Positions 12,245-41,917 of a DNA stretch of 64,000 nucleotides are shown one piece after another. The stretch spans positions 1 through 64,000 of the forward strand of contig NZ_CAMFLC010000015.1 of NCBI RefSeq assembly GCF_945957465.1, read 5' to 3'. The notes beneath the pieces are model-generated. The model searched no databases. It was not told the DNA's origin and saw nothing but the letters and a program-made list of their open reading frames with translations. Numbering within the stretch: the stretch's first letter is position 1; the number at the start of each line of letters is the position of its first letter. A program made the position numbers and the translations under genes. This stretch comes from an uncultured Leifsonia sp. (GTDB lineage Bacteria; Actinomycetota; Actinomycetes; Actinomycetales; Microbacteriaceae).

Positions 12245-12269
12245 CGGGACCCGACCCGAACGGGTCCCG
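12245..12269 (+). terminator. Hairpin after the DUF4082 gene
   Basis: A perfect 9-bp stem, CGGGACCCG (12245-12253) and CGGGTCCCG (12261-12269), with a 7-nt loop, lies 15 nt after the stop codon. There is no T-run, so it may be a processing site or a partial terminator before the sugar operon. Confidence 0.5.
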
Positions 12270-12296
12270 CTGACAAGAAAGGTGCTGGGGGCACTC

Positions 12297-15507: not shown

Positions 15508-16133
15508 GGGATCTCGTCCTGATCGGCGCGAGCGGCCTTGCGCGCGAGGTGATGGCGATGCGACGGGTGGGGACTCGGGTCATCGGCGTCCTCGACGACG
15601 ACACCGCCCTGCACGGGCACACCATCGGCGGCGTCGAGGTCTTCGGCGGCCTCGAACTGGCGGCCGGGCTGCCGGGCGAGTTCGCCGTCTGCGTCGGCGC
15701 GGGCGCGGGGCGTCGGCGCATCGTGCAGCGCCTGGCCTCGATGGGCATCGGCCCCGAGCGCTTCCCCACCCTCGTCGACGAGGCGGCCCACCTGTCGGAC
15801 AACTCGCTGGTGGGTGTGGGGAGCATCATCCTGGCCGGCTGCGTGCTGACGGCGGACGTGGTCGTCGGCCGTCACGTGGTGCTGATGCCGAACTGCACGC
15901 TCACGCACGACGACATCGTCGACGACTACGCCACCTTCGCAGCGGGCGTCGCCGTCGGCGGGGTGGCCCGCATCGGCGAGGCCGCCTACCTGGGCATGAA
16001 TGCATCCGTCCGCCAGCACGTCTCGATCGGGGCGGGCGCCACCATCGGGATGGGCGCCGTCGTGCTGAGCGACGTCCCGGGCGGACAGACCTGGGCGGGG
16101 GTTCCCGCACGAGAACTGGGGGTACGGCTATGA
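15504..16133 (+). CDS. NeuD/PglD-like sugar O/N-acyltransferase
   Basis: The 209-residue protein has a small Rossmann-like N-terminal domain (LVLIGASGLAREV, LDDD) followed by a left-handed beta-helix of hexapeptide repeats. This is the two-domain architecture of PglD/NeuD, which acetylates amino-sugar nucleotides. The segment NCTLTHDD contains the conserved His of the active site. ATG 15504 overlaps the preceding TGA and its own TGA overlaps the next ATG, so it is tightly coupled with both aminotransferases. The most likely role is N-acylation of the aminosugar made by this operon; O-acylation is possible. Confidence 0.87.
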   Translation: MRDLVLIGASGLAREVMAMRRVGTRVIGVLDDDTALHGHTIGGVEVFGGLELAAGLPGEFAVCVGAGAGRRRIVQRLASMGIGPERFPTLVDEAAHLSDNSLVGVGSIILAGCVLTADVVVGRHVVLMPNCTLTHDDIVDDYATFAAGVAVGGVARIGEAAYLGMNASVRQHVSIGAGATIGMGAVVLSDVPGGQTWAGVPARELGVRL

Positions 16134-23743: not shown

Positions 23744-24979
23744 ATGAGTCGACGTGCAACAGACGACATCGAGCGCGTTCTCGTCCATCTGAACAGCCTC
23801 GAACTCGGGGGTACCCAGATCAACGCGCTCGACCTGGCGGTCGAGGTCCGCCGGCACGGCATCGAATCGATCCTCGTCGGCGCCAGGGAGACGCTTCCCG
23901 CCGGCCCGTCGCTGCTCGACATCGCCGCCCGGCGCGGCATCACCGTCGAGGTCTACGACCCGGAGGCGTCGATCCTCGCCCGCGGCCGGCAGCTCACGAC
24001 GCTCGCCGAACAGCACGGCGCCGAGCTCCTGCACGTGTACGGCTCCTGGGGCGGCGGCGCGCGCCCGACCTACTGGGGCTTCGCGCGCTTCGGTCGCCGG
24101 CCCTGGATCCAGACCGTCTACGAGATGGAGGTCTCGCCCAAGATCAAGCGCCACATGCCGCTGATCGTGGGCACCGGCTACCTGGTCGACGAGCTGGAGC
24201 GCCGGCCGGGCCGCACGATCCTGATCAGCCCGCCGGTGGACACCGACGCCGACCGGCCCGACCCCGCGGCGGGCGCCGCCTTCCGGGCCGCGCACGGCCT
24301 CCACGGCGACCTCCTGATGATCGTCAGCCGACTGGACGCCGACATGAAGTCTCTCCCCATCGGTCTCGCGATCGAAGCGATGGGGACGCTGACGGCCGAC
24401 GCGACCCTCGCGATCGTGGGCACGGGCGACGATGCCGCGCGGCTGAAGGACGCCGCGGCGCTCGTCAACGCGCGGCTCGGCCGCGAAGCCGTCCGGTTCC
24501 TCGGCCCGCTGGCCGATCCCCGTCCCGCCTACGCGGCCGCCGACATCGTGCTCGGCATGGGCAGCTCCGCCGCACGCGGACTCGCGTTCGGCAAGCCGCT
24601 GGTGGTGCAGGGTCAAGCGGGCTGGTCCGCGCTCTTCGACGAGGACAGCGCGGCTGAACTCGCGCGCTCCAGCTACTGGAGCCCGCTGTCGGTGGCGAAC
24701 CCGGTCGAGCGGCTCCGCGCCATCATCGACCCGGTGCTGGCCGACACGGAGGGGCGCGCCAGGCTCGGCGCGTTCGGGCGCGGATTCGCCCTCGAACGCT
24801 TCGGTCTGACCCTGATGGCGGCGAAGCTGGCCGGCTTCTACCGGGAGGTCGCTGGAACGTACGGTCTGCGGCAGTGGGCTGCGGATCTCCCGCCGGAGCT
24901 CGCGATCCTGGCCCGCAAGGGCGTGAACAGCATCCCGCGGCACTCGCGCTCGCACTCGCGGAGCGGGGTGACCGCGTGA
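23744..24979 (+). CDS. GT4-type glycosyltransferase
   Basis: A retaining GT-B glycosyltransferase for repeat-unit assembly (411 residues). The N-terminal domain has VLVHLNSLELGGTQINALDLA, the usual glycine-rich acceptor loop. The C-terminal domain has MIVSRLDADMKSLPIGLAIEAM, AIVGTGDDA and FLGPLADPRPAYAAADIVLGMGSSAARGLAFGKP. The family Glu-x7-Glu site is replaced by this Ser/Ala-rich segment, so the acceptor site is atypical. ATG 23744 is preferred; an in-frame ATG at 23618 would place translation across the shared 18-bp box. The stop overlaps the flippase start. Confidence 0.8.
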   Translation: MSRRATDDIERVLVHLNSLELGGTQINALDLAVEVRRHGIESILVGARETLPAGPSLLDIAARRGITVEVYDPEASILARGRQLTTLAEQHGAELLHVYGSWGGGARPTYWGFARFGRRPWIQTVYEMEVSPKIKRHMPLIVGTGYLVDELERRPGRTILISPPVDTDADRPDPAAGAAFRAAHGLHGDLLMIVSRLDADMKSLPIGLAIEAMGTLTADATLAIVGTGDDAARLKDAAALVNARLGREAVRFLGPLADPRPAYAAADIVLGMGSSAARGLAFGKPLVVQGQAGWSALFDEDSAAELARSSYWSPLSVANPVERLRAIIDPVLADTEGRARLGAFGRGFALERFGLTLMAAKLAGFYREVAGTYGLRQWAADLPPELAILARKGVNSIPRHSRSHSRSGVTA

Positions 24980-26478
24980 GCGACGAGCGCGGGGGGCGCG
25001 ACACGGCGCTGTCGGGACCGGGCGCCGCGGCTGCGGACGGCATCGGCGGACGCTCCCTCGTCGGGCGGGCCGCCCGCGGAGCGGCCTGGAGCGGTGTCAG
25101 CACGATCGTCCTGCGGCTCGGCGGGCTCGTGGTCGGGATCGTGCTCGCCCGTCTGCTCGCACCCGAGCAGTTCGGCGTCTACGCTGTCGCGCTGACCGTC
25201 CAGGGCATCCTGATCACGGTGGCCGACCTGGGGCTGTCCGCCGACCTCATCCGGTCGGACGAGCCGGAGCGGATCGCGCCCACCGTCGCGACGCTCGGCC
25301 TCACCGCCGGAACCCTGACAGCCGCGGCGACCGCGGCGTCCAGCATGGGACTCGCGTCGTTGCTCGACAGCCCGCAGGCGGGTCCCGCGATCGCCGTCCT
25401 CTCCCTCACGCTGCTGCTCGCCGGAGGGACGGTGGTGCCGTTCGCGATGCTCCAGCGCCGGTTCCAGCAGCGCGAGCTGTTCTTCGTCGGTGTGGCCGAC
25501 TTCGTCGTCTCCACCACCGTCACCCTGCTGCTCGTGGCGCTCGGGTTCGGCGTGATGGGCTTGGCCATCGGGCGGGTCGCCGCGCAGGTCGTGTCCTCGG
25601 CGCTGCAGTTCCTCCTCGCACGCGTGGTGCCCCGGTTCTCGATCGACCGGACCGTCGTCAAGGGAGTGCTCGCCTTCGGGCTCCCGATCGCGGCGGCCAA
25701 CCTGCTGTCGTGGGCGCTGCTCAACGTCGACAACATCGTGCTCGCGCGTGTCGCCGGCGCGACCGCGCTCGGCTACTACGTGCTCGCCTTCAACATCTCG
25801 AGCTGGCCGATGAGCGCGCTGTCGCAGGTCGTGCGCTCGATCGCCCTCCCGTTCTTCTCGCGCTCGCAGGGCGGCACGCACGCTTTCGCAGTCGTCGCCG
25901 CCGTCGCCTGGGCGGGCGCCCTCCCGGCCGGTACCGTCCTCGCCGCGCTGAGCTTCCCGCTGATCGACGTGCTCTACGGCGAACGGTGGCTCCCGGGCGC
26001 GCCCGTGCTCGCCGCCCTCGGCCTGTACGGGAGTCTTCGCGTGGCGTTCGACATCTCCGCCGGCTACCTGTATTCGCAGGGGCGATCACGCCCGGTCCTC
26101 TGGATCCAGATCGTCTGGCTGGTCGCCCTGGTCGCCGCGATGGTGGCGGCGACCCAGGCCTACGGCATCCAGGGAGCCGGCTGGGCGCACGTGGTCGTCG
26201 CGGTCGTGGTGATCCTGCCCGCGTATCTGATCGCGTTGAAGCTCACCGGGGTGAAGCTCGGCGACCTGGCCAGGATGGCGTGGCTGCCGACAGCAGCGAC
26301 GATTCCGGCCGTGGCGGCCGCTGTCGTGGCCACCCTGTTCATCAGCGCTCCCGTCGGTGCGCTCCTGGTCGGAGGCTCGGCGGCCCTCGTTGTCTACGCG
26401 GCGCTCATCTGGCCGTGGCTCCGCAAGCAGCTCCGGCTGCTCCGGTCCGGCGGAGCCCGGGAACGGGCGGAGGTGTGA
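24976..26478 (+). CDS. Wzx-type polysaccharide flippase
   Basis: A 500-residue integral membrane protein of the MOP/oligosaccharide flippase family that moves lipid-linked repeat units across the membrane. The start is RAARGAAWSGVSTIVLRLGG, followed by RLLAPEQFGVYAVALTV and DLGLSADLIR, all typical of the PST/RfbX group. About 12 to 14 hydrophobic segments can be counted. FNISSWPMSALSQVVRSIALPFFSR is another family hallmark. GTG 24976 overlaps the upstream stop. It pairs functionally with the Wzy-like polymerase at 37505-38827. Confidence 0.92.
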   Translation: MSDERGGRDTALSGPGAAAADGIGGRSLVGRAARGAAWSGVSTIVLRLGGLVVGIVLARLLAPEQFGVYAVALTVQGILITVADLGLSADLIRSDEPERIAPTVATLGLTAGTLTAAATAASSMGLASLLDSPQAGPAIAVLSLTLLLAGGTVVPFAMLQRRFQQRELFFVGVADFVVSTTVTLLLVALGFGVMGLAIGRVAAQVVSSALQFLLARVVPRFSIDRTVVKGVLAFGLPIAAANLLSWALLNVDNIVLARVAGATALGYYVLAFNISSWPMSALSQVVRSIALPFFSRSQGGTHAFAVVAAVAWAGALPAGTVLAALSFPLIDVLYGERWLPGAPVLAALGLYGSLRVAFDISAGYLYSQGRSRPVLWIQIVWLVALVAAMVAATQAYGIQGAGWAHVVVAVVVILPAYLIALKLTGVKLGDLARMAWLPTAATIPAVAAAVVATLFISAPVGALLVGGSAALVVYAALIWPWLRKQLRLLRSGGARERAEV

Positions 26479-27968: not shown

Positions 27969-29227
27969 CCAGCTGGGACGGCATTCGTTCCACCGTCCGC
28001 CGCGCCCGCACCGTCGGCGCCCACGGGATCGCCCAGCGGCTCGCCCAGCGGGCCTACCTGCGCACCGGCGCGGCGGAGCTTTCGTTCAACCTCGCCTTCG
28101 ACGACATCCTCACCGACATCCCGCGCGAGCTGCCCGTGCCGGAGGTCCGTCCGGCCCACGGCACGCCGATCACCGTCGGCTGGGTCTCGACGCCGCCGGC
28201 ACCGGGTTCCGGAGGGCACACCACGCTGTTCCGCATGGTGGAGGCCCTCGAAGAGCGCGGGCACCGCTGCGTGCTGTACCTCTATGACAAGAACGGGGTG
28301 GACGTCGCGGCGGCCACCGCCGTTATCCGGGAGCACTGGCCGCGGATGCGGGCGACGGTGGCGGATGCCGCCGCGGGCATCGGCGCCATCGACGCCGTCG
28401 TGGCGTCGGGCTGGGAGTCCGCGCACGTGATCGTGCGGTACGGCCGCGCTCCGATGCGCCGGCTCTACTTCATCCAGGACTACGAGCCGTATTTCTACGG
28501 TCACGGTTCGCAGTACGAGCTGGCGGCGATGACGTACCGGCTGCCGTTCCGCCGCATCGCCCTCGGGGAGATGCTGGACGCGATGATCACGCGGGCGACC
28601 GGACTCGCGAACGACGTCGTGCCCTTCGGCTGCGACTCGCGGGTGTACCGGCTTCCCGAGGGCTCCCGGCCGCGGAGCGGGATCGTCTTCTACTGCCGGC
28701 CGGACTTCCCGCGCCGCGGGTACGAACTGGCGTGCGTGGCGCTGACGCTGTTCCATCGGATGCATCCGGAGCAGGAGATCCACGTCTACGGAGCACGGCC
28801 GCGCGGACTCGGCATCCCGGTCACCTTCCACGGCCGGCTCACGACCGCCGAGCTCAACGACCTCTACGGTCGCACGATCGCGGGCCTCGCGATGTCGTTC
28901 ACGAACATCACGCTCGTCGCCGAGGAGATGCTCGCCGCCGGGAACATCCCGGTCGTGAACGACCTGGAACTCGCGCACCTGGTGCTGCCGAACGAGCACG
29001 TGCGGTGGGCGCCGCCCACGGCGGCCGCGCTGGCCGGCGCGCTCGGCGCGGCCGTCAGCGCTCCGGATGTCGCTCAGCGGGCGGAGGCCGCTGCCGCGTC
29101 GGTCGTCGGCCGGTCGTGGGAGCCCACCTACCGCGCGGTGGCCGCGATCGTCGAGGACGAGGTCTACGGCGACCAGGCGTCGTCGGCCGCCGGCGCCCGA
29201 CTCACCGACCAGGGGGAGACAGCATGA
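27965..29227 (+). CDS. WsaF-like rhamnosyltransferase
   Basis: A 420-residue glycosyltransferase of the WsaF/rhamnan-synthesis type, likely adding rhamnose or a related deoxysugar to the repeat unit. The N-terminal third is helical. PITVGWVSTPPAPGSGGHTTLFRM and LYLYDKNGVD follow. The segment YFIQDYEPYFYGHGSQY is the strongest hallmark of the WsaF C-terminal family. Further on are VFYCRPDFPRRGYEL, VTFHGRLTTAELNDLY and GLAMSFTNITLVAEEMLAAGN. The start overlaps the preceding stop by four bases, as does its stop with the next start. Confidence 0.86.
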   Translation: MTSWDGIRSTVRRARTVGAHGIAQRLAQRAYLRTGAAELSFNLAFDDILTDIPRELPVPEVRPAHGTPITVGWVSTPPAPGSGGHTTLFRMVEALEERGHRCVLYLYDKNGVDVAAATAVIREHWPRMRATVADAAAGIGAIDAVVASGWESAHVIVRYGRAPMRRLYFIQDYEPYFYGHGSQYELAAMTYRLPFRRIALGEMLDAMITRATGLANDVVPFGCDSRVYRLPEGSRPRSGIVFYCRPDFPRRGYELACVALTLFHRMHPEQEIHVYGARPRGLGIPVTFHGRLTTAELNDLYGRTIAGLAMSFTNITLVAEEMLAAGNIPVVNDLELAHLVLPNEHVRWAPPTAAALAGALGAAVSAPDVAQRAEAAAASVVGRSWEPTYRAVAAIVEDEVYGDQASSAAGARLTDQGETA

Positions 29228-30567
29228 GGGAATCGAAGGCCGCGCGCGCACCGCACGTGCTCATCATCGTGGAGAACCTGCCCGTGCCGCTCGATCGCCG
29301 CGTCTGGCTGGAGTGCCAGGCGCTGGTCGCGCGCGGCTACCGGGTGAGCGTGATCTGCCCGAAGGGTCCGGGCGACCCGGCCCACCAGCACCTCGACGGC
29401 GTCGACATCCACAAATACGCTCCGCCGCGCGAGGCCGTCGGGCTCTTCGGGTTCGCGTGGGAGTTCCTCTACTGCTGGGTGCACACGGCGCGCCTGTCGC
29501 TGAAGGTCTGGCGACGGCGGCGCTTCGACATCATCCAGGCGTGCAACCCGCCGGACACGTACTGGCTGCTCGCCCTGCTCTGGCGGGTGCGGGGCGTCCA
29601 CTTCGTGTTCGACCACCACGACCTCAACCCCGAGCTCTTCGTCTCCCGCTTCGGGAGGCCGCGGAGCCTCCCCCAGAAGCTGGAGTTCCGCGGCCTGCTC
29701 TGGCTGGAGCGCAAGACGTTCCACACCGCAGAGCGCGTGATCTCGACCAACGAGTCGTACAAGGCCATCGCCGTCCGCCGCGGCGGCCGCCGCCCCGGCC
29801 ATGTCACGGTGGTGCGCAGCGGGCCGGACACGCGCCGGATGCGGCCGATCTACCCGCAGAGTCCGCGTCCTGCGGACGGGATCGTGCTTGCGTACCTGGG
29901 CATCATGGGGCCGCAGGACGGCGTCGACCAAGTGCTCCTCGTCATGGAGGAGCTGGTGCACAAGCGCGGCCGGTCGACCGTGACCGCGACGCTCCTGGGC
30001 TTCGGCGACTGCCTCGAGGAGCTGAAGGCGCAGTCGACGCGGCTCGGGCTCGACGAGCACGTGACGTTCACGGGCCGGGTCGACCGGGTGGCGATGGCCG
30101 AGTACCTGAGCCGCGCCGACATCGGGGTGTGTCCCGACCTGAAGACGCCGCTCAACGACCTCTCCACGATGAACAAGACGATGGAGTACATGGCGTACGC
30201 GCTGCCGTCCGTCTCGTTCGATCTGGCGGAGACCCGCGTCTCCGGCGGCGAGAGCCTGCTCTATGTGCCGTCCGGCGACATCGCGGCGTTCGCCGACGCG
30301 GTGGAGCGACTCATCGACGACCCGGCACTGCGCGTCGAACTGGGCCGGGCGGGCCGGGCGCGCGTCGCCTCCGAGCTCGACTGGCGGCCGCAGGCCGAGG
30401 CGTACGTGTCGGTCTTCGACGAGGTGTCCGGCTTCTCGCAGCCGGGACCGGCGGTGCCCGACGACGGCAGCGGTGTCGCGACCGCCGACCCGCAGGGACG
30501 GCGCTATGTTGATCTCGACGACAGCGCCGAGTTCGACCGCTATCTCCTGGAACGGAGGGCTCCGTGA
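29224..30567 (+). CDS. GT4 family glycosyltransferase
   Basis: A 447-residue GT-B glycosyltransferase. It begins HVLIIVENLPVPLDRRVWLE, a signature of one subgroup of EPS GT4 enzymes that also carry FDIIQACNPPDTYW and FDHHDLNPELF, all present here. The C-terminal domain has LAYLGIMGPQDGVDQVL, LLGFGDCLEEL, VTFTGRVDRVAMAEYLSRADIGV and NKTMEYMAYALPSVSFDLAE. The Glu of TMEYMA matches the donor-binding Glu position. It overlaps the WsaF-like gene upstream and the acyl ligase downstream, so it is co-translated with the ligase module. Confidence 0.92.
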   Translation: MRESKAARAPHVLIIVENLPVPLDRRVWLECQALVARGYRVSVICPKGPGDPAHQHLDGVDIHKYAPPREAVGLFGFAWEFLYCWVHTARLSLKVWRRRRFDIIQACNPPDTYWLLALLWRVRGVHFVFDHHDLNPELFVSRFGRPRSLPQKLEFRGLLWLERKTFHTAERVISTNESYKAIAVRRGGRRPGHVTVVRSGPDTRRMRPIYPQSPRPADGIVLAYLGIMGPQDGVDQVLLVMEELVHKRGRSTVTATLLGFGDCLEELKAQSTRLGLDEHVTFTGRVDRVAMAEYLSRADIGVCPDLKTPLNDLSTMNKTMEYMAYALPSVSFDLAETRVSGGESLLYVPSGDIAAFADAVERLIDDPALRVELGRAGRARVASELDWRPQAEAYVSVFDEVSGFSQPGPAVPDDGSGVATADPQGRRYVDLDDSAEFDRYLLERRAP

Positions 30568-32123
30568 TGAGGACGCGCGTCCACGACCTCCTCGCCCAGG
30601 CCGCCGCGACGGCCGCGGAGCGTCCCGCCCTGACGTACAAGACGTCGACGGTCGGCTACGGCGAGCTCTGGGGCCGCACGCTGAGCGTGGGCGCGCAGCT
30701 CGCGGAGCTGGGCGTCGAGCCGGGGGACCGGGTGGCGATCTACCTCGAGAAGCGCATCGAGACGGTGATCGCGCTGTTCGCCGCATCCGTCGCGGGCGGC
30801 GTCTTCGTGCCGGTCAACCACGTGCTCAAGCCCGCACAGGTCGGGCACATCCTGCGCGACAGCGGTGCGCGCATCCTGATCACCTCCGCGGACCGGCTGG
30901 GCCAGCTCACGGGCGAGCTCGCCGGCACCGCTGTCGCCGGGGTGATCCTGGTCGGCGAGCCGGCGGACGTCTCGCTCGGCGGCCCGGCGGTGCACCGGTG
31001 GTCCGGCGATCAGCCGTCGACGGAGGTCCCACCGGTCCGCGCGATCGACGTGGACCCCGCCGCCATCCTCTACACCTCCGGGAGCAGCGGCAAGCCGAAG
31101 GGGGTGGTGCTGAGCCACCGGAACCTCATCGTGGGAGCCGAGAGCGTCAGCAGCTACCTGAAGAACACCGCCGACGATGTCATCCTGAGCGTCCTCCCGC
31201 TGAGCTTCGACGCGGGCCTCAGCCAGGTGACCACGGCGTTCTCGGTCGGCGCCCACTGCGTGCTGATGAACTACCTGCTGCCGCGCGACGTCCCCCGGCT
31301 CTGCGAGCAGCACGGTGTCACCGGGATCACCGGCGTGCCGCCGCTCTGGCTCCAGCTCGCCGAGGTGCCCTGGCCGGAGGAGACGGCCGGGCGCATCCGC
31401 TACTGGGCGAACACCGGAGGCCGGATGCCGCGCACCGTCCTCGACCGGTTGCGTTCGATCTTCACCTCGGCCGACCCCTACCTCATGTACGGGCTCACCG
31501 AGGCGTTCCGCTCCACCTACCTCGACCCGGCCGAGGTGGACCGGCGCCCCGACTCCATCGGCAAGGCCATCCCGAACGCGGAAGTGCTCGTGCTGCGGCC
31601 GGACGGCACCCGCTGCGCGCCGGGGGAGGAGGGCGAACTCGTCCATCGGGGCGCCCTCGTCGCCCTCGGGTACTGGAACGACCCCGAGCGGACGCGCGAG
31701 CGCTACCGTCCGGTGCCGCACCCCGGCCAGGAGTGGCGGGCGCCGGAGCTCGCGGTCTGGTCCGGCGACACCGTGGTCGCCGACGAGGAGGGCTTCCTCT
31801 ACTTCGTCGGACGCACCGACGAGATGATCAAGACCTCCGGCTACCGGGTGAGTCCGTCGGAGATCGAGGAGGCGGCGTACGGCACCGGCCTGGTGCGCGA
31901 CGCGGTCGCGCTCGGCGTCGAAGAGCCCGGGCTGGGGCATCGCGTCGTCCTCGTGGCCACGGCGGCAGGCGACGGGCTGGAGTCGACCGTTCTGCTGGGC
32001 GCCCTGCGTCAGGTGCTCCCGCTGTACATGGTCCCCTCGACCATCGAGCTGCGCGGCGAGCTGCCGCGCTCGCCCAACGGCAAGTTCGATCGCGTTCTCC
32101 TGAAAGCGCAGGTGTCGGCATGA
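30564..32123 (+). CDS. AMP-forming acyl ligase, EPS-associated
   Basis: An adenylate-forming enzyme (519 or 520 residues) that activates a carboxylic acid as an acyl-AMP, then transfers it to CoA or the ACP encoded downstream. The P-loop motif YTSGSSGKPKG is at about 170-180. YGLTEAFRSTYLD, GELVHRG, then WSGDTV, GRTDEMIKTSGYRVSP and the C-terminal catalytic Lys in PRSPNGKFDR are all present, so the enzyme appears active. By family knowledge it is closest to ligases described as exosortase A system-associated, but no exosortase is visible here. GTG 30564 overlaps the upstream stop; ATG 30567 is equally placed behind GGAGG. Confidence 0.85.
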   Translation: MMRTRVHDLLAQAAATAAERPALTYKTSTVGYGELWGRTLSVGAQLAELGVEPGDRVAIYLEKRIETVIALFAASVAGGVFVPVNHVLKPAQVGHILRDSGARILITSADRLGQLTGELAGTAVAGVILVGEPADVSLGGPAVHRWSGDQPSTEVPPVRAIDVDPAAILYTSGSSGKPKGVVLSHRNLIVGAESVSSYLKNTADDVILSVLPLSFDAGLSQVTTAFSVGAHCVLMNYLLPRDVPRLCEQHGVTGITGVPPLWLQLAEVPWPEETAGRIRYWANTGGRMPRTVLDRLRSIFTSADPYLMYGLTEAFRSTYLDPAEVDRRPDSIGKAIPNAEVLVLRPDGTRCAPGEEGELVHRGALVALGYWNDPERTRERYRPVPHPGQEWRAPELAVWSGDTVVADEEGFLYFVGRTDEMIKTSGYRVSPSEIEEAAYGTGLVRDAVALGVEEPGLGHRVVLVATAAGDGLESTVLLGALRQVLPLYMVPSTIELRGELPRSPNGKFDRVLLKAQVSA

Positions 32124-33346
32124 AACCGCAGGAGCATGTCGCCGCCTTCGGCACGATCGGCGGCGAGCTGCGCGTCGGAGGCATGCCGCTCTCGCGGCTG
32201 GCCGCGCGCGTCGGCTCCACCCCGTTCTTCGCCTACGACCGCGGCCTGCTCGACCGGAGGGTCGCGGAGTTGCGCGCCCTCCTGCCCGACCGCGTCGAGC
32301 TGAGCTACGCCATGAAGGCGAATCCGATGCCGGCCGTCGTGCACCACCTCTCGTCGCGGGTCGACCGGATCGACGTGGCGTCCGGGCTCGAGCTGCGCAC
32401 GGCCTTGGACACGGGGATCCGCCCCGAGGCCGTCAGCTTCGCCGGGCCCGGCAAGTCCCCCGCCGAACTGCGTCAGGCGGTCGCCGCGGGGATCGTCGTC
32501 GAGATCGAGTCGCGCACCGAGATCGAGCGCGTGATCGCCGCCGGCGACGAGCTGGGCGTGACGCCGGTCGTCGCGATCCGGGTCAACCCCGACTTCGCGG
32601 TCAAGGGCTCGGGGATGCGGATGGGCGGCGGCCCGCAGCAGTTCGGCGTCGACGCCGAGCTCGTCCCCGAGCTGCTGCGGGAGTTCGGCGCCGCCGGGCT
32701 CGACATCCGCGGGTTCCACGTGTTCGCCGGCTCGCAGAACCTCGTCGCCTCGATCATCGCCGAAGCGCAACGGCGCACCGTCGACCTGGTGAGCGGGCTG
32801 GCCGAGCACCTCCCCTCGCCGGTCCGCTACCTCAACCTCGGCGGCGGCTTCGGCATCCCGTACACCGAGCGCGATCGCCCGCTCGAACTGGAGGCCGTGA
32901 GCTCGGCGCTCCACGAGCTGGTCGACGGTGCGCTGTCCGAACGGCTCCCGGAGGCCGTTCCCGTGATCGAGCTCGGCCGTTACCTCGTCGGTGAGTGCGG
33001 GGTCTACGTCACCCGTGTCCTCGACCGGAAGGTGTCGCGCGGCAAGACCTATCTGGTGGTCGACGGCGGCATGCACCACCAGCTCGCGGCCTCCGGAAAC
33101 TTCGGGCAGGCGATCCGCCGCAACTACCCGCTGGTGGTCGGCAACCGCGTCGACGCGGCCGAGGACGACGGCGTGACGGTCGTGGGCTGCCTGTGCACGC
33201 CGCTCGACCTCCTGGGCGACGACGTCGTCCTCCCGGACGCCGGCATCGACGACCTGATCGTCATCTTCCAGCAGGGCGCGTACGGCCTGACCGCGAGCCC
33301 GACCGCCTTCCTCGGCCACCCCGCACCGGCCGAGGTCCTCGTCTGA
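32120..33346 (+). CDS. PLP-dependent decarboxylase, fold III (LysA-like)
   Basis: A 408-residue fold-III PLP enzyme related to diaminopimelate decarboxylase. FFAYDRGLLDRRVAEL and LSYAMKANPM (Schiff-base Lys66) start the barrel. GFHVFAGSQN, LNLGGGFGIPY and the beta-sandwich GRYLVGECGVYVTRVLDRK follow. GCLCTPLDLLGDDVVLP carries the active-site Cys and Asp found in family members, and QQGAYGLTASPTAF matches the final substrate-binding strand. A role in lysine synthesis is unlikely given the coupling to an acyl ligase and ACP. It more likely decarboxylates an amino-acid-derived substrate for the EPS module. Overlapping stop/start codons link it to the ligase. Confidence 0.85.
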   Translation: MKPQEHVAAFGTIGGELRVGGMPLSRLAARVGSTPFFAYDRGLLDRRVAELRALLPDRVELSYAMKANPMPAVVHHLSSRVDRIDVASGLELRTALDTGIRPEAVSFAGPGKSPAELRQAVAAGIVVEIESRTEIERVIAAGDELGVTPVVAIRVNPDFAVKGSGMRMGGGPQQFGVDAELVPELLREFGAAGLDIRGFHVFAGSQNLVASIIAEAQRRTVDLVSGLAEHLPSPVRYLNLGGGFGIPYTERDRPLELEAVSSALHELVDGALSERLPEAVPVIELGRYLVGECGVYVTRVLDRKVSRGKTYLVVDGGMHHQLAASGNFGQAIRRNYPLVVGNRVDAAEDDGVTVVGCLCTPLDLLGDDVVLPDAGIDDLIVIFQQGAYGLTASPTAFLGHPAPAEVLV

Positions 33347-33374
33347 GCACCACCCGACACAAGGAGAACCGCGA

Positions 33375-33629
33375 ATGACCGACACCGTCGATGCCGTGAA
33401 AGACGTCCTGATCGAGACTCTCGAACTCCGTCAGACACCCGCAGAGCTCACGCGCGACACGCCCCTGTTCGGGGCGCTGCCCGAGCTCGACTCCTTCGGC
33501 GTCGTGCAGCTCGTCGTCGCGCTGGAGGGGCGCTTCGACATCGTCATCGACGATGAGGAGTTCGGCGCCGACCTCTTCGAGACGGTCGGTTCGCTGACCG
33601 ACTTCGTCGACGCCAAGCTCGCCGCCTGA
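33375..33629 (+). CDS. Acyl carrier protein
   Basis: An 84-residue acidic four-helix carrier protein. The phosphopantetheine attachment motif is LDSFGVVQL with Ser40. Length and acidity are typical of ACPs and discrete carrier domains. A good ribosome-binding site (AAGGAG) is 7 nt upstream. It lies 28 nt after the decarboxylase and 4 nt before the asparagine-synthetase-like gene. It probably holds the acyl or aminoacyl group activated by the ligase as a thioester. Confidence 0.93.
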   Translation: MTDTVDAVKDVLIETLELRQTPAELTRDTPLFGALPELDSFGVVQLVVALEGRFDIVIDDEEFGADLFETVGSLTDFVDAKLAA

Positions 33630-33633
33630 CGCC

Positions 33634-35391
33634 ATGTCGAGCGCAGGCGTGCTCCCCGGAGTGCTCGCGACCCAGGGCGAGGCGCCCGCCGGCGTCCTCG
33701 GCCGGGTCGGGGACGCCGTCGAGGTGACCGAGCTCGGCGCGGGCGCGGTCCGGCTGGCCCACTGGGGCCTCGGGCCGCTCGAAGCCGGCTCCACGCTGCT
33801 GCTCTCGCGGGTGGTGCGCCGGTCTGACGGCGCCGTCGGTCCGGCCGAGGTCGCGGAGCTGATGGCGCGCGATCCCGCCGCACTGACCCGGCTGCTGCCG
33901 CCGTTCGCCGCGGCGGGGGCACGTCGGGACGGGGTGACCCTCGTCGCGGACTCGATGGGCTTCCGCCAGCTCTTCCACAGCGAACCGGGCGCGCAGGGGC
34001 CCGGGGTGCTGTCCACCTCGGCCCTGCTCGCCGGGTGGACCAGGGGAGCGGCGCTGGACCGCGTCGCCGTCGCTGTGCAGTCCCTGCTCGGCTGGCAGCT
34101 CGGCCAGCGCACCCTGCACGAGGGCGTCACCAAGCTCGAACCGGCGGCGAGCGTGCACCTGGGTGCCGGAGGGGTGAGCGTCGTGGCGGGTGAACCGGAC
34201 GCCGGGCCTCCGCTCCCGCTCGAGGACGCGGTCGTGCAGGCGGCGGCCCTGCTCCGGGAGTCGCTCGCGGCTCTGCTCGACGACGAGCCGGACGCCGTGC
34301 TCCAGCTCACGGGCGGCCTCGACTCCCGGTTGCTGCTGAGCGCGATCCCCGCCGCGCGCCGCCACGGCCTGCGCGCGATGACCCTGAGCGTGCCCGGGAG
34401 CGGTGACGTCGCGATCGCCCGCGAGATCACCGCGGCGAACGGGATGGCGCATGAAGTGCACGGGCTGGCCGACCTCGGCGGCATCGAGCCGGCCGAAGCC
34501 TGGAGGCTGTGCACGGACGCGGCGCTCCGGCTCGACGGGATGTCCGATCCCGTCGCCCTCGCCGCGCTCGGGGTGGCCGAGCGCGGCTTCTCGCAGGGCG
34601 TGCGCATCTCAGGTCTCGGCGGGGAGGTCGCGCGCGGTTTCTACTATGTGGGCCGCGTGCGCGACCGCCCCTACACGCGGGCGGATGCGGAGCAGCTCGC
34701 CGCGTGGCGCATGTTCGTCAACGAGGCGGTCGAGCCGGGCGTCCTCGCCGCCGAGTTCGCCACGTGGGCTCGGGAGGCGGCGAACGGCGAAGTCTATGCC
34801 GCGCTGCGTCGCGGGGGCGACGAGTGGTACCGCGCCACAGACACGCTCTATCTGCGCGATCGCATGCAGCGCTGGGCGGGCGCGACCGACACGGCCGTCG
34901 GCTACCAGCGGGTCGTGGTCAACCCCATGCTCGACCACGGCTTCCTCGACATCTGCTCGCGGCTGACCCCGCAGGACAAGGCGCACTCCCGGTTCCTCGC
35001 CGCGCTGCAGATGGAGCTCGACCCGGAGCTCGGGCGGCGCCCGCTCGAGGGCAGGCCGAGCCCCGCCGCCTACGCCCGCCCGTCCCTGCTGCACCCGGTC
35101 GCGCAGACCGTGCGGACCGGCACGAGGCTCGCCCGCAAGGCGGCCCAGCGCGTGCGCCGGGGCAATCGGCCGCCCGCCGGTGGAGAGATCCTCGCCGGCC
35201 TGGTCGTGCAGCACTGGCGTCAGGACGACCGGGTCCGTTCCGCGCTGGGCGCCACCGGGCTGGTCGACGAGCGCTGGCTCGACGTGATGATGGCAGGCGA
35301 GCTGGAACCGCGTCCGAGCACCGTCGGGTTCCTGACGAACCTGATCGTGGCGTCCGGTGGTCTCCCGTCGAGCGCACCTCAGGCCGGCTGA
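33634..35391 (+). CDS. Asparagine-synthetase-like amide ligase lacking Cys2
   Basis: A 585-residue protein with an N-terminal Ntn-like region (about 1-195) and a PP-loop ATPase domain. Its ATP-binding motif is LTGGLDS (225-231), followed by LSVPGSGD and SGLGGEVARGF, as in the AsnB family. Residue 2 is Ser, not the Cys that asparagine synthetases need to hydrolyse glutamine, so it should use free amine or ammonia as nucleophile. Such enzymes form amides or lactams in secondary metabolism, and similar genes accompany EPS loci. It may join the carrier-bound group to an amine. The 3' end overlaps the convergent glycosyltransferase by 13 bp. Confidence 0.82.
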   Translation: MSSAGVLPGVLATQGEAPAGVLGRVGDAVEVTELGAGAVRLAHWGLGPLEAGSTLLLSRVVRRSDGAVGPAEVAELMARDPAALTRLLPPFAAAGARRDGVTLVADSMGFRQLFHSEPGAQGPGVLSTSALLAGWTRGAALDRVAVAVQSLLGWQLGQRTLHEGVTKLEPAASVHLGAGGVSVVAGEPDAGPPLPLEDAVVQAAALLRESLAALLDDEPDAVLQLTGGLDSRLLLSAIPAARRHGLRAMTLSVPGSGDVAIAREITAANGMAHEVHGLADLGGIEPAEAWRLCTDAALRLDGMSDPVALAALGVAERGFSQGVRISGLGGEVARGFYYVGRVRDRPYTRADAEQLAAWRMFVNEAVEPGVLAAEFATWAREAANGEVYAALRRGGDEWYRATDTLYLRDRMQRWAGATDTAVGYQRVVVNPMLDHGFLDICSRLTPQDKAHSRFLAALQMELDPELGRRPLEGRPSPAAYARPSLLHPVAQTVRTGTRLARKAAQRVRRGNRPPAGGEILAGLVVQHWRQDDRVRSALGATGLVDERWLDVMMAGELEPRPSTVGFLTNLIVASGGLPSSAPQAG

Positions 35392-36599: not shown

Positions 36600-37508
36600 T
36601 CAGCGGGGGATCAGGGTGCGGTTCGCGCCGAGCGCTGGCGGCCGTCGGGACGGCTGCAGCAGGGCCCGCGCGGTCGGCCACGACTTGTCGTGGCCGAGCA
36701 GCGCCCGGCGCAGCTCGACCAGCACCGTCAGTGCGAAGTACACGCTCGCGAGCGCTGTGCCGCGGCGACGGCGATAGAGCCGCACCCGGTTGAGGATCTT
36801 CATGGTGTGCGTCGTCGAGCTCTCGCCTGAGCCGCCTCCGATGTGCATCGCGCCGGCGTCGGGGGTGTAGACGGTCGCCCAGCCCGCGTCCTTGGCGCGC
36901 AGGCTGAAGTCCGTCTCCTCCGAGTAGAGGAAGTACGTCTCGTCCAGGCCGTTCATCTCGCGGAAGCACTCGGCCCTCACCAGGAGGATCGCGCCGACCG
37001 CCCACTCCACCTCGTGCTCGGTCTCGTACTCCTTCGGGTCCTCGATGCGCTCGGTGAACACCGGGAGGCCGGTGAAGCTCAGGCCGCCGACGCGCGCCAT
37101 CGTGGGGCCGCGCCGCAGGGTGGGCGAGAGGCTGCCGTCGGCCTCGCGCACGCGCGGTGCGACGATCCCGATCCCCGGCTTGCGAACCACCGCGAGCATG
37201 CGCGGGACGCACTCCGGATCGAGGGTCGCGTCGGGGTTCAGGATCAGGATCGTCTCCGCGTCCGGCGAGGCCTCCACCGCGGTGTTCATGCCCGCCGCGT
37301 AGCCGCGGTTGGTGGAGTGGACCACCGTGCAGTCGGTGCGGCGCGCCAGCAGCTCCAGCGTTCCGTCGGTGGAGCCGTTGTCGACGACGACGACGGAGTA
37401 CGACACGTCGCCGGCCGCGGCGGGGATGCTGTCGAGCAGCGCGTCGATGTGGTCTTCACTGTTGTAGGTCACGACCACGGCAGCGACGTCCACGTGCATG
37501 GCGGTCAT
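36600..37508 (-). CDS. GT2 family (rhamnosyltransferase-like) glycosyltransferase
   Basis: A 302-residue GT-A inverting glycosyltransferase of the WbbL/RfbN type. VAAVVVTYNSEDHIDALLDS is followed by VVVDNGSTDGT. LILNPDATLDPE contains the DxD-like metal site, and GAILLVRAECFREMNGLDETYFLYSEETDFSLRAKDAGW contains the catalytic acid region. The C-terminal tail is basic and probably membrane-associated. The start ATGA overlaps the stop of the upstream Wzy-like gene. Only 3 nt separate its stop from the next gene start. Confidence 0.93.
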   Translation of the reverse strand: MTAMHVDVAAVVVTYNSEDHIDALLDSIPAAAGDVSYSVVVVDNGSTDGTLELLARRTDCTVVHSTNRGYAAGMNTAVEASPDAETILILNPDATLDPECVPRMLAVVRKPGIGIVAPRVREADGSLSPTLRRGPTMARVGGLSFTGLPVFTERIEDPKEYETEHEVEWAVGAILLVRAECFREMNGLDETYFLYSEETDFSLRAKDAGWATVYTPDAGAMHIGGGSGESSTTHTMKILNRVRLYRRRRGTALASVYFALTVLVELRRALLGHDKSWPTARALLQPSRRPPALGANRTLIPR

Positions 37509-38827
37509 CCTACTAGCGGGACGAACGGCATGGCCGAGCCGCGTTCGATGCGCCGCAGCGCACCCGCCAGGCCGAGGATGAGGAAGAGCGTCCCCATCGT
37601 CATGGGGAACGCGAAGGCGTCGAACGTGAACAGGCAGACGAATCCGGTCGCGATCGACGCGGCCAGCGCGATCGCCAGGTCTCTGGTCGCTTCGTCGCGC
37701 TGCCGGATGCGCAGCCGCAGCGACGTCACCAGTGCGGTGGTGCCGAGCGCGATGAAGGCGGCCGTGCCGACGATACCCACGGTGACCAGGAGCAGAAGGT
37801 ACTGGTTGTCGAAGATGCGGTAGATCGGCAGGAACGTTCCGAGGCCGCGTCCGAACACGGGTCTTCGGAGCAGGAACTCCTCCGCGAGCGAATAGCTGTC
37901 GGTGCGCGAGGCGATGCTCGGGTCGTTGGCGGCTCCGGCGAAGAGCCCGATGATCGACGTGAACAGGTTGGGTGTGACGACGCTCATGGCTGCGACACCG
38001 ACGGCGACCACGCCGAGCATGCGCAGCCGTCGCGTCCTCCGCCAGCCGATCAGGCACACCAGGAAGCCGACCGCCGCGCCCAGGTAGGCGGATCGCGACG
38101 ACGTGAGCGGAACGACGGCCGCCACGGCCACGGCCGGCAGCCAGCGGACGAGGAGGGGGCGGTGCTTCTGGTTGAACCCGACGTAGAGGGCGAGCGGGAG
38201 GATCATCGTGATCAGCGTCCCGTACTCGATCGGATGGGTCGCCGTGCCCGCCGGCCGGGGGAAGCCGCCGCGCGCGTTCAGGGAGTAGCCGGCCGAACCG
38301 GTGAGTCCGGGGATGGAGAGCTTGTCGACCCAGATCTGCCGCGTGAGCACCTGGAAGATCCCGAGCAGCGCGATGATGGCGCCGCACACGCAGAGCCGCC
38401 AGATCAGCGTCTCGAGCCGCGAGCGATCCGGCACGTTGTCGTGGGTCAGCAGCAGCGTTCCGCTCCACGACGCCAACGCCAGCAGGGCCACGTCTCCCGG
38501 GCTGATCTCGGCGGGGGCCATCGGCCCCGACATGGCGAGGACATAGCTGATCCCCACGCAGACCAGGAAGATCCCCAGGGCGATCCGGATGGGCTGGGGC
38601 GTGGTCATCCCGCCCCTCCCGGACCCCAGGCGGAAGAACACCCACAGCACCAGGCTGCCCAGCCCGAACAGCATGGACGGTGCGCCGGCGCTGCCCAGGG
38701 GGCCGAAGACGAGCCGGGTGGGGACGAAGAGGAGCAGGGCGACGTAGATCGTCAGCCAGCCGACGGCGTCGACCACGGGGCTCGGTATCGCCAGCCGGGT
38801 CTCCGGCGGGGCGAGCCGTGTCGTCAA
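37505..38827 (-). CDS. Wzy/O-antigen-ligase-like polymerase
   Basis: A 440-residue polytopic membrane protein with about 10 to 12 hydrophobic segments and a large extracytoplasmic loop near 165-215. It contains LTSSRSAYLGAAVGFLV, a common Wzy_C-like motif with Ser/Arg in a conserved position, and RPVFGRGLGTFLPIY after a long loop. It is the best candidate for the EPS polymerase, linking repeat units delivered by the flippase at 24976-26478; a ligase role is the alternative. Four-base overlaps connect it to the GT2 and Wzz-like genes on both sides. Confidence 0.85.
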   Translation of the reverse strand: MTTRLAPPETRLAIPSPVVDAVGWLTIYVALLLFVPTRLVFGPLGSAGAPSMLFGLGSLVLWVFFRLGSGRGGMTTPQPIRIALGIFLVCVGISYVLAMSGPMAPAEISPGDVALLALASWSGTLLLTHDNVPDRSRLETLIWRLCVCGAIIALLGIFQVLTRQIWVDKLSIPGLTGSAGYSLNARGGFPRPAGTATHPIEYGTLITMILPLALYVGFNQKHRPLLVRWLPAVAVAAVVPLTSSRSAYLGAAVGFLVCLIGWRRTRRLRMLGVVAVGVAAMSVVTPNLFTSIIGLFAGAANDPSIASRTDSYSLAEEFLLRRPVFGRGLGTFLPIYRIFDNQYLLLLVTVGIVGTAAFIALGTTALVTSLRLRIRQRDEATRDLAIALAASIATGFVCLFTFDAFAFPMTMGTLFLILGLAGALRRIERGSAMPFVPLVG

Positions 38828-40400: not shown

Positions 40401-41051
40401 TCAGCGGCGGCGCTTGTACGAGCTCGAAGCGAACGCGCGCAGATCGGCCGGCCCGGGGCGATGGTCGACCATGTGACGCACGGAGGCGACCGTGTCGCGC
40501 GCGGTGACGCTGTACCGCGGCTGGAGCCACGTCGTCGCGCGGGTGGGGTAGCGATCGCTGGTGAAGACCGTCCGGTATCCGTGCTCCCGCAGCCGGGCGA
40601 GCGATGCCCGGTCGTAGCGGCCGAGCGGGAGCGCCGCCTCCTCGATCGGGCCTCCGCTCGCCTCCGCGAGGATTTCCCTCGCCTCCACGAACTCGCGGTG
40701 CTGCTCGGCGGGCGACAGGTTGCGCCAGGGCACGTGCGCCCAGCCGTGTGTTCCGACGCCCATCCCGGCGGAGCGCAATGACCGCAGGTCGTCGGGACCC
40801 AGGCTCGCGGCCTCCTCGAGTCGGCCGGCGAGCGGGAAGAAGGTCGCCTGCATGCCCCGTTCGAGGAGCGCGGGGAGGCCGACGTCGATGTCCGAGGAGT
40901 TCCCGTCGTCGAAGCTGATCCGCACATCGGGGCGGCCGCGGAGCTCGTCCAGGACGGCGAGGAACAGCTCGCGACTGATCCAGTAGTTCGCCCCGCCGGG
41001 TTCTCGTTCCTCCCCCGCGCCGATCCCGTGGAAGCAGATGTTGATCCTCAT
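40401..41051 (-). CDS. NodB-type polysaccharide deacetylase
   Basis: A 216-residue metal-dependent deacetylase. RISFDDGNSSD carries the Asp pair of motif 1. THGWAHVPW gives the His-x3-His zinc ligands of motif 2, and LPLGRYD resembles motif 3. No signal peptide is seen, so the enzyme may act in the cytoplasm or on lipid-linked sugars at the inner membrane face. Its substrate could be an N-acetylated EPS sugar. The start overlaps the stop of the upstream GT2 gene by four bases. Confidence 0.87.
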   Translation of the reverse strand: MRINICFHGIGAGEEREPGGANYWISRELFLAVLDELRGRPDVRISFDDGNSSDIDVGLPALLERGMQATFFPLAGRLEEAASLGPDDLRSLRSAGMGVGTHGWAHVPWRNLSPAEQHREFVEAREILAEASGGPIEEAALPLGRYDRASLARLREHGYRTVFTSDRYPTRATTWLQPRYSVTARDTVASVRHMVDHRPGPADLRAFASSSYKRRR

Positions 41052-41917
41052 GCGGCTCCTCGTCGGTCGCCGGTCGCGGTGCCGTTCCGGGTGCTGTCGT
41101 CGCGCCCCCAGCCGCCGCCGCTGGAGGCGGCGCGGCGGGCACGCAGAGCGGCGACCACGGTGATCGCGACGTAGGGCACCGCCGCGAAGGCGAGCCGAGG
41201 GTGCGGGACGACCACGTCGGTGAACCACGCCCAGCGCCTCGCCGGCCGGACCGGCGCGCCGGTCGCGGCGCCGTCGGCACGCAGCTGGGCGTTGCCGCGC
41301 CGCACGCGCTCGAGGCGCGCGAGCAGTGCGCGCGTGGTGCGCGGCGCTTCGACCACGACCTCGACCTCCGGAACCACGACGCGTTCGGCCTCCGAGTAGA
41401 GGGAGTCCACGAACAGGTCGTCGGCGATCCGGTCGGGCAACGCGGTGAACCGCGCGCGGCCCTCTTCGGACAGCGTGATCACACCGCGACCGAACAGCCC
41501 GGAGCGGAATGCCGGCAGCCGCTCGTTGATGGAGAAGTAGGCGCGCACCGGCCAGGGGCGCCCTGCGGTGTCGAGTCGCCGCCGCGGGACGGCCGCGAGC
41601 CGGCCCGGAGCATCGGACAGCCGCGCGACGAGTGCTCCGACCGCGTGCGGGGGGAGCACGATGTCCGCGTCCAGGTAGATGCGCGGGAACGAGGTGGCGA
41701 CGGCGTCGCCCGCGTTGAGCGCTGCCGCCTTGCCCGGCTCGGGGCGGTCGACGACGACGGCTCCGCCTCGGCGGGCGATGTCGGCCGTCCGGTCCGTGCA
41801 GCCGTTGGCGCTCACCACGATCTCCAGCGTTCCGCCGATGTCCTGAGCGGCCAGCGCGTCGAGGCACGCGCCGATCACCTGCTCCTCGTTGTGAGCGGCG
41901 ATCACGACGCTCGGCAT
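41048..41917 (-). CDS. GT2 family glycosyltransferase
   Basis: A 289-residue GT-A enzyme. PSVVIAAHNEEQVIGACLDAL and EIVVSANGCTDRTADIARR start the nucleotide-binding half. RIYLDADIVLP holds the DxD metal-binding motif. ALPDRIADDLFVDSLYSEAER contains an EDLF-like region near the catalytic base. A single hydrophobic helix (about 240-260) near the C-terminus suggests membrane attachment. ATG 41917 is preferred to GTG 41932 because a GAGGGGG ribosome-binding site falls between them. Confidence 0.87.
   Translation of the reverse strand: MPSVVIAAHNEEQVIGACLDALAAQDIGGTLEIVVSANGCTDRTADIARRGGAVVVDRPEPGKAAALNAGDAVATSFPRIYLDADIVLPPHAVGALVARLSDAPGRLAAVPRRRLDTAGRPWPVRAYFSINERLPAFRSGLFGRGVITLSEEGRARFTALPDRIADDLFVDSLYSEAERVVVPEVEVVVEAPRTTRALLARLERVRRGNAQLRADGAATGAPVRPARRWAWFTDVVVPHPRLAFAAVPYVAITVVAALRARRAASSGGGWGRDDSTRNGTATGDRRGAA

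Follow-up and report, generated by a model that had tools for sequence, protein, structure and literature searches.

A probable cassette for decorating exopolysaccharide amino sugars with decarboxylated amino acids in an uncultured Leifsonia sp.

For the families TIGR03098 and TIGR03099, NCBIfam offers no more than a description as hypothetical equivalogs linked to exosortase A (XrtA). What chemistry they might perform is a question raised by an exopolysaccharide (EPS) locus of an uncultured Leifsonia sp., where both are present in a genome in which we found no exosortase. In the window analysed here, a stretch of 64,000 nucleotides, the two genes encode a ligase and a decarboxylase and are followed by those of a carrier protein and an AsnB-superfamily protein (Table 1). 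The four consecutive coupled genes of the preliminary description are all present on the forward strand. The stop codon of the family 4 glycosyltransferase gene overlaps the ligase ATG (TGATG; a GTG at 30564 is an alternative start), an ATGA overlap joins the ligase and decarboxylase genes, and gaps of 28 and 4 bases precede the carrier and AsnB-like genes, respectively. The polysaccharide locus also contains Wzx, Wzy_C, Bac_transf, several glycosyltransferases, two DegT aminotransferases, a NeuD-type acetyltransferase scoring over its cut-off, and a Gfo/Idh protein whose best model, UDP-GlcNAc 3-dehydrogenase, scored under the cut-off.

Table 1. Features of the EPS locus, with positions in the 64,000-nucleotide window.
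Feature	Position	Strand	Remark
Amino-sugar genes (Gfo/Idh, SDR, DegT, NeuD-type acetyltransferase, DegT)	12321..17233	+	
Wzx-type flippase	24976..26478	+	
Family 4 glycosyltransferase	29224..30567	+	coupled to ligase gene
VinN-type adenylate-forming ligase (TIGR03098)	30567..32123	+	predicted to load an acidic amino acid via its side-chain carboxylate onto the carrier
BtrK-like fold-III PLP decarboxylase (TIGR03099)	32120..33346	+	predicted aminoacyl-carrier-protein decarboxylase
Acyl/aminoacyl carrier protein	33375..33629	+	PF00550; Ser40 phosphopantetheine site
AsnB-superfamily protein lacking glutaminase Cys	33634..35391	+	predicted beta-lactam/carbapenam-synthetase-like fold; accessory
Family 2 glycosyltransferase	36600..37499	-	in 42/80 related loci
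Wzy_C-type polymerase/ligase	37505..38776	-	in 37/80 related loci; 0/12 alphaproteobacterial
NodB-type polysaccharide deacetylase	40401..41051	-	predicted to expose the acceptor amine
Family 2 glycosyltransferase	41048..41917	-	in 22/80 related loci
Tandem-GNAT transferase	42031..42912	+	predicted to attach the aminoacyl group, once decarboxylated, to an amino sugar

Profile searches placed the ligase (712.8 bits, cut-off 592.35) in TIGR03098 and the decarboxylase (563 bits, cut-off 478.45) in TIGR03099, the exosortase-A-type families to which the two genes had been likened. The ordinary fatty-acid or lysine-pathway matches that would have spoken for another assignment did not appear, as no fatty-acid or LysA family scored over its cut-off. 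The exosortase model PF09721 gave no match in the 99.75% complete Leifsonia genome, in agreement with the earlier reading; the control was positive in one of 14 genomes, that of M. jannaschii. The PEP-CTERM model PF07589 also matched nothing in this genome, nor in any control genome.

As judged from its sequence, the ligase is VinN-like and likely acts on an acidic amino acid. An ungapped 76-column alignment with VinN, obtained with a fragment query and with the residue-number offset calculated by hand, places T283, M307, F314, and R315 on S299, M323, K330, and R331. Asp215 we take to be the equivalent of VinN Asp230, on the basis of a motif and an alignment with the LgrA domain, gapped at the key pocket loop, rather than of the VinN alignment. 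The assignment of the ligase draws on residues D215, T283, M307, R315, and K506. The VinN-type pocket for a side-chain carboxylate (equivalents of Asp230, Ser299, and Arg331) is present with one deviation, Ala216 in place of VinN F231, so that the pocket is not identical to that of VinN and more than one amino acid comes into question. The roles of the VinN pocket residues are described in PMC7756342, PMC12186527, PMC11253843, and PMC9484153. Asp215, Met307, and Arg315 are invariant in all 96 aligned ligases, and the same Asp, Met, and Arg occur in 24 ligases from a sample of 30 proteobacterial loci. At the position of Thr283, 19 of the 24 aligned proteobacterial sequences have Ser, one short sequence being left out; proteobacterial ligases mostly carry Tyr and Ser, whereas those of the present type carry Ala and Thr. 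The top-scoring solved relatives are amino acid adenylation domains. Both the model scores and the residues of the pocket led us to discard an ordinary fatty-acid CoA ligase.

The nearest solved relative of the decarboxylase is BtrK, a glutamyl-carrier-protein decarboxylase (246 bits), followed by the next relative at 140 bits. The enzyme thus groups with the BtrK-like fold-III PLP decarboxylases; it has K66 in YAMKAN and CTPLD at 359, and its CTP motif also occurs in BtrK. LysA identity was rejected, since the lysA model remained below its cut-off (223.1 against 297.9) and BtrK was nearest. According to PMC11284099, the related decarboxylase VinO requires a thioester-bound substrate. The carrier protein is free-standing and scores 30.5 bits against PF00550 (cut-off 20.8), with Ser40 within LDSFG, confirming the intact site claimed for it; two matches to PF01648 (ACPS family) over cut-off are found in the same genome. 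The likely route would lead from an acidic amino acid to the aminoacyl-carrier protein and then to its decarboxylated form.

The fourth gene fits less well with what was claimed for it. The AsnB-superfamily gene is present, but its product is a distant relative of asparagine synthetase, scoring 20.3 bits against PF00733, slightly below the cut-off of 21, and 21.2 bits against 267.1 for TIGR01536. The N-terminal glutaminase Cys is absent from all 17 aligned AsnB-like sequences; together with the distance from AsnB, this sets the protein apart from the usual glutamine-hydrolysing asparagine synthetases. The beta-lactam and carbapenam synthetases are not known to have this Cys either, and beta-lactam-synthetase-like amide synthetases use a catalytic Tyr-Glu dyad and a Lys. 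The best fold matches of the predicted model are beta-lactam synthetase, carbapenam synthetase, and TsnB9, which have the predicted fold and a GGxDS-type loop in common with it; with its intact synthetase PP-loop, the protein appears to be beta-lactam-synthetase-like. K449 is invariant in alignment A6. The gene occurs in 12 of the 80 related loci by gene calls (14 by tblastn), against 54 for a GNAT-like transferase, and the EPS locus of genome G200 has kept it where we saw no ligase, decarboxylase, carrier, GNAT, or deacetylase gene. It is separable from the cassette and accessory; as a constant fourth part or core partner it was rejected on this distribution.

The partners that do track the cassette, a transferase and a deacetylase, sit 5 to 9 kb beyond the block delimited in the preliminary description. 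The transferase has no Pfam match at E 1e-4, no NCBIfam match at E 1e-6, and no sequence match among solved chains. Its AlphaFold2 model (pLDDT 93.6) nevertheless predicts a tandem-GNAT fold, matching the Eis and N-myristoyltransferase enzymes over about 268 residues. Its Foldseek and VIA matches are CoA-using enzymes, whereas the donor here is predicted to be a carrier protein. Among 299 genomes of the family, the transferase (E 1e-15) occurs in 8, exactly those with a decarboxylase over the cut-off; a ninth genome, detected at E 1e-90, has a decarboxylase of 344 bits, under the cut-off, and no tandem-GNAT. The deacetylase, in which no signal peptide is visible by eye, exceeds 300 bits in the same 8 genomes, with weaker matches in two more.

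Of the 80 named related loci, 52 have the ligase, decarboxylase, and carrier genes side by side on the same strand, which exceeds chance, and the loss of neighbourhood in relatives that would have weakened the earlier interpretation was not observed. The decarboxylase was detected by tblastn in all 80 loci, although gene calls lacked it in L092, L126, L135, and L144; L068 and L072, devoid of gene calls, were set aside. A GNAT-like transferase is encoded in 54 loci by gene calls and 58 by tblastn, directly before an adjacent ligase, decarboxylase, and carrier in 31. Even by tblastn, 22 of the 80 had none; a sister group formed by Streptomyces and related genera belongs to these. Of 55 loci with a GNAT, our own window counted, 19 showed no deacetylase. 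Family 2 glycosyltransferase, deacetylase, and DUF4082 genes occur in 33, 31, and 34 of 67 loci from Actinomycetota and in 9, 6, and 4 of 12 from Alphaproteobacteria, and Wzy in 37 of 67 and 0 of 12, respectively. In support of linkage, decarboxylase distances correlated with those of the ligase (0.82), carrier (0.78), GNAT (0.75), and AsnB-like protein (0.73, over 13 loci), but also with the family 2 glycosyltransferase (0.62), deacetylase (0.53), and Wzy (0.46). The last three values indicate that shared ancestry accounts for part of the linkage and that, of the members proposed here, the deacetylase is tied least closely to the rest. Some of the co-occurrence may stem from the inheritance of whole loci, as only G200 separates cassette from locus.

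We consider it probable that these genes form a mobile EPS-decoration cassette, by which a decarboxylated amino acid replaces the acetyl group on an EPS amino sugar. The basis is gene content, enzyme families, the VinN-type pocket, the nearness to BtrK, predicted folds, and co-occurrence, from which we infer the reactions, their order, the amino acid, and the acceptor sugar. The ligase would adenylate the side-chain carboxylate of an acidic amino acid, with L-Asp, L-Glu, and a methyl derivative as candidates, and load this amino acid onto the carrier protein; the BtrK-like enzyme would then strip the alpha-carboxyl from the aminoacyl thioester, giving beta-alanyl- or 4-aminobutyryl-carrier protein. 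The deacetylase would unmask an amine of a sugar intermediate in the cytosol, and the tandem-GNAT enzyme would move the aminoacyl group to this amine, so that the exported polymer would bear an amide-linked primary amine. Where present, the AsnB-like enzyme could form an optional, extra ATP-driven amide bond. The preliminary description appears right in its chemistry of acid activation, carrier loading, decarboxylation, and probable EPS decoration, but not in its fourth part.

Stand-alone VinN-type ligases, free carriers, and PLP decarboxylases acting on acidic aminoacyl thioesters are likewise known from VinN/VinL/VinO of vicenistatin and from the related FlvN, BolO/BolC/BolN, and AfcQ/AfcP sets, in which the pocket residues Asp, Ser/Thr, Met, and Arg occupy corresponding places. 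These sets feed polyketides or lipopeptides, whereas the present one lies in an EPS locus with a GNAT partner and a deacetylase, and we saw no second adenylation enzyme in it, unlike in the VinN-type sets. The decarboxylase is closest to that of BtrJ/BtrI/BtrK, which has a carrier-bound substrate; BtrJ is an ATP-grasp ligase, and the product is the aminoglycoside side chain of butirosin. Since characterised relatives serve natural products (vicenistatin, fluvirucin, butirosin, and bolagladin), the trio could instead supply a lipopeptide or a small secreted metabolite with a beta- or gamma-aminoacyl group, its position in an EPS locus being incidental. The sister decarboxylases from Streptomyces, Herbidospora, Amycolatopsis, and others, which have large neighbours (881 to 2788 aa), would suit this, the tree being from FastTree only and carrying long-branch warnings. 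We regard it as unlikely, given the recurrence of the cassette with glycosyltransferase, deacetylase, and DUF4082 genes in Actinomycetota and Alphaproteobacteria, its association with Wzy in the actinobacterial though not the alphaproteobacterial loci, and the lack of a multi-domain PKS/NRPS among the window genes scanned. Among the literature matches listed, seen as titles and abstract openings and covering few subscription papers, none linked the trio to polysaccharide decoration.

Two further readings appear very improbable to us. A fatty acid as the ligase substrate would be in keeping with a title cited in PMC11631085, which ties N-acyl amino acid synthases to PEP-CTERM/exosortase systems, and with a PF13444 autoinducer/FeeM-like gene adjoining the decarboxylase in proteobacterial locus L186; yet Asp215 and Arg315 fit a dicarboxylic amino acid, amino acid adenylation domains score highest among the solved ligases, and the PLP decarboxylase would be left without a role. 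We give as little credence to a decarboxylase of the lysine/ornithine type releasing a free diamine or amine, which the AsnB-like enzyme would join to carboxylates of EPS uronic acids while a different acyl group would be handled by the ligase and carrier. The synthetases with the same predicted fold do use an amine instead of glutamine-derived ammonia, consistent with the missing Cys, but BtrK is more than 100 bits nearer than the DAP or lysine/ornithine decarboxylases, and the sparse distribution of the AsnB-like gene and its occurrence in G200 without a decarboxylase speak against such a pairing.

Returning to the decoration cassette, we would tentatively extend it to a general carrier route, by which TIGR03098 and TIGR03099 might deliver decarboxylated acidic amino acids to EPS amino sugars in XrtA Proteobacteria, exosortase-free Actinomycetota, and Rhizobiales, with lineage-specific recruitment of GNAT enzymes. 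The Tyr/Ser pocket would then predict a beta-alanyl group in XrtA loci and the Ala/Thr pocket a longer one here, e.g., 4-aminobutyryl. A tandem-GNAT of the present type occurs in only two of the 30 proteobacterial loci sampled, one of them weak; different GNAT-superfamily genes lie beside the ligase-decarboxylase pair in L180, L186, and L067. Concrete chemistry is hereby proposed for both families. If true, bacteria apply the beta-amino acid logic of antibiotics to put primary amines on polysaccharides, which would change their charge, adhesion, and biofilm properties.

Two more full-length TIGR03099-like genes (181 and 153 bits) exist in the Leifsonia genome, and the hydrolases TIGR03100/TIGR03101 and Prs genes were found in proteobacterial L174 and L180. 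An AMP-binding protein of about 475 aa (c49) is encoded in four of the five loci in which GNAT directly precedes the decarboxylase; L139 has both this protein and the ligase.

The four genes lie within a polysaccharide locus, where several glycosyltransferase genes also surround them. They are coupled, as stated in the preliminary description, and all lie on the plus strand: the ligase start overlaps the stop of an upstream glycosyltransferase gene (TGATG), an ATGA overlap joins ligase and decarboxylase, and gaps of 28 and 4 bases lead to the carrier protein and AsnB-like genes. The suggested family assignments, TIGR03098 for the ligase and TIGR03099 for the decarboxylase, both exceeded the curated cut-offs. 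The reported lack of an exosortase extends to the whole 4.06 Mb genome, in which we found none; in the PEP-CTERM search of the genome, no control gave a match.

Genes of the polysaccharide locus and its flanks (window positions)
Feature	Position	Strand	Remark
DUF4082 protein	7749-12230
Amino-sugar genes	12321-17233
L-2-hydroxyglutarate oxidase family protein	17366-18553		529.6 bits, cut-off 299
Bac_transf	18895
Wzx	24976
Ligase	30567-32123	+	TIGR03098
Decarboxylase	32120-33346	+	TIGR03099
Carrier protein	33375-33629	+
AsnB-like gene	33634-35391	+
Wzy_C	37505
Polysaccharide deacetylase	40401
Tandem-GNAT transferase (GNAT)	42031-42912
DUF4082 protein	42970-44481

The two DUF4082 proteins, one on each side of the locus, are perhaps polymer-binding surface proteins; one comprises four DUF4082 stretches and a DMFA2_C domain. 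Among the best 80 of 579 related loci, 38 contain short DUF4082 genes and only four a homologue of the oxidase family protein, which lies within the EPS region.

The decarboxylase exceeds the TIGR03099 cut-off in eight of 299 Microbacteriaceae genomes (the window's genome G000, G055, G089, G103, G130, G191, G279 and G281), and the GNAT family was detected at E 1e-15 or better in the identical eight. The deacetylase family (E 1e-35 or better) occurs in ten, with more than 300 bits in the same eight and 224 and 137 bits in G022 and G273, respectively. By this distribution, the GNAT and the deacetylase appear to be the real partners of the cassette. The AsnB-like family was found in seven of the 299 genomes, namely six of the eight and G200.

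The locus of G200 (L203) is syntenic with the window, sharing DegT, PglD, DegT, genes homologous to those at 38824 and 39784, Wzy, two GT2, DUF4082, AsnB-like, GT4 and Wzx genes. Searching its 20 kb by tblastn with the window proteins revealed no ligase, decarboxylase, carrier protein, GNAT or deacetylase. The genome-wide search of G200 covered three of these, finding no over-cut-off decarboxylase and no window-type GNAT or deacetylase; the absence of ligase and carrier protein refers to the 20-kb locus. In this single case, the five cassette genes are thus missing together, and the AsnB-like gene is separable from them. The originally proposed four-gene unit retains its ligase, decarboxylase and carrier protein, but loses the AsnB-like gene, kept in the cassette-less locus, as a bound part.

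A ninth family genome, G073, reached 344 bits with the decarboxylase, below the cut-off, and had no GNAT of the window family at E 1e-15. Besides this more distant decarboxylase, its locus (L065, contig C7) encodes a ligase-like protein of 575 residues and a pair of small proteins resembling carriers, and is possibly a beta-aminoacyl natural-product cluster. G281 carries two equally scoring locus copies (L063 on C4, L064 on C5); the ligase of L064 is called in two pieces, and the duplicate may reflect assembly duplication, a broken copy or a gene-call error. In G089, a second GNAT of this family (C1:3426914-3427759), more diverged at 321 bits, lies some 25 kb away from the other one.

Among the nearest relatives only, the best 80 of 579, gene calls placed the decarboxylase cluster at 76 loci, the ligase at 67, the carrier protein at 63, the GNAT at 54, the deacetylase at 37 and the AsnB-like gene at 12; by tblastn, the GNAT was present at 58 and the AsnB-like gene at 14. 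Ligase, decarboxylase and carrier protein genes are adjacent on one strand at 52 of the 80 loci; at 31 loci, the GNAT directly precedes such a trio on the same strand. A genome-wide GNAT check found a match in six of seven genomes. The GNAT lies elsewhere in the genome for three GNAT-less loci (L110, L118, L121) and on another contig for L073, taken as G130; L088 has none at the locus or elsewhere. Others of the 22 GNAT-less loci are short contigs or members of a Streptomyces-type sister set. The 80 loci comprise 67 from Actinomycetota, 12 from Pseudomonadota, all Alphaproteobacteria (nine with the GNAT by gene calls), and one from Melainabacteria. Wzy occurs at 37 of the 67 actinobacterial versus none of the 12 alphaproteobacterial loci, indicating that the polymer machinery differs among them.

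Four GNAT-decarboxylase loci (L113, at 11495-12925, L119, L139 and L150) encode an AMP-binding protein of about 475 residues, matching PF00501 in L113; no usual ligase was seen within 10 kb in L113, L119 and L150. Eleven decarboxylase loci from Streptomyces, Amycolatopsis, Herbidospora and relatives (L103, L115, L120, L125, L127, L131, L143-L147) have no GNAT, and most hold a carrier-ligase-decarboxylase trio; many adjoin large proteins of 881 to 2788 residues, and the loci are possibly natural-product clusters.

Across 396 sampled genomes of the phylum, 24 have the decarboxylase at E 1e-90 or better, and two exceed the cut-off: the window's genome and G441, from another family, in whose locus (L066) the GNAT immediately precedes ligase, decarboxylase and carrier protein. 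The other 22 all belong to one family, f18 (407-424 bits). BLAST found no window-type GNAT in its four gene-called loci (L067, L069, L070, L071); other GNAT-superfamily genes flank the set on both sides in L067.

In 349 proteobacterial genomes, 25 exceeded the TIGR03099 cut-off and 41 matched at E 1e-90 or better. Unlike the window locus, the 30 loci sampled from TIGR03099-bearing genomes rarely contain a window-type GNAT (two of 30: L177, strong and in the four-gene order, and L199, weak at 88 bits). The only two annotated, L174 and L180, are true exosortase A (XrtA)-type loci: PrsT, PrsK, TIGR03006, TIGR03015, TIGR03027, TIGR03100 and TIGR03101 each exceed the cut-off in at least one of the two. 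In a FastTree decarboxylase tree, which carried long-branch warnings, the window groups with GNAT-bearing loci and the proteobacterial sample falls outside, except L177.

The top-scoring solved relatives of the ligase are amino acid adenylation domains. From an LgrA alignment and a known motif, we take its Asp215 and Ala216 to be equivalent to Asp230 and Phe231 of VinN, the vicenistatin-pathway ligase. A ligase-fragment query matched only two chains under E 0.01, 3wv4 and 3wvn, over 76 ungapped columns; both are VinN (excerpt of PMC11253843). Counting by hand on this alignment, Thr283, Met307, Phe314 and Arg315 correspond to VinN Ser299, Met323, Lys330 and Arg331. According to the excerpts from which we took VinN numbering and roles, Asp230 holds the amino group and Ser299 and Arg331 the alpha-carboxylate (PMC7756342; PMC9484153; PMC11253843). 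AfcQ, sharing the pocket Arg with the window ligase, activates L-Asp, by its authors' logic at the side-chain carboxylate (excerpt of PMC12186527).

Asp215, Met307, Phe314, Arg315 and Lys506 are invariant among 96 aligned ligases, one 337-residue row being left out: 49 from the GNAT set, 10 from other named loci, eight from the ACP2 set, four from f18, the window, and 24 proteobacterial rows (six of the 30 loci lacked a ligase row or, as L177, were counted in the GNAT set). Whereas all the other groups have Ala216 and Thr283, the 24 proteobacterial rows mostly have Tyr216 (21 of 24) and Ser283 (19 of 24). This residue pattern may reflect a single mechanism with two substrate sizes.

The closest solved sequences to the decarboxylase are entries of the butirosin-pathway BtrK, 7ru7 (246 bits) and 2j66 (245 bits), named L-glutamyl-[BtrI acyl-carrier protein] decarboxylase; the next relatives score at most 140 bits. 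VinO decarboxylates only after thioester formation (excerpt of PMC11284099). Families, residues, predicted folds and distribution point to a pathway in which an acidic amino acid would be loaded onto the carrier protein and the aminoacyl-carrier protein then decarboxylated; such aminoacyl-carrier chemistry is very probably the role of the first three genes. The deacetylase would uncover an amine, onto which the GNAT would then transfer the decarboxylated aminoacyl group; we favour this complete route with moderate confidence.

The window's genome encodes two more full-length decarboxylase-like proteins, which score 181 and 153 bits, below the TIGR03099 cut-off, and could be lysine-synthesis enzymes.
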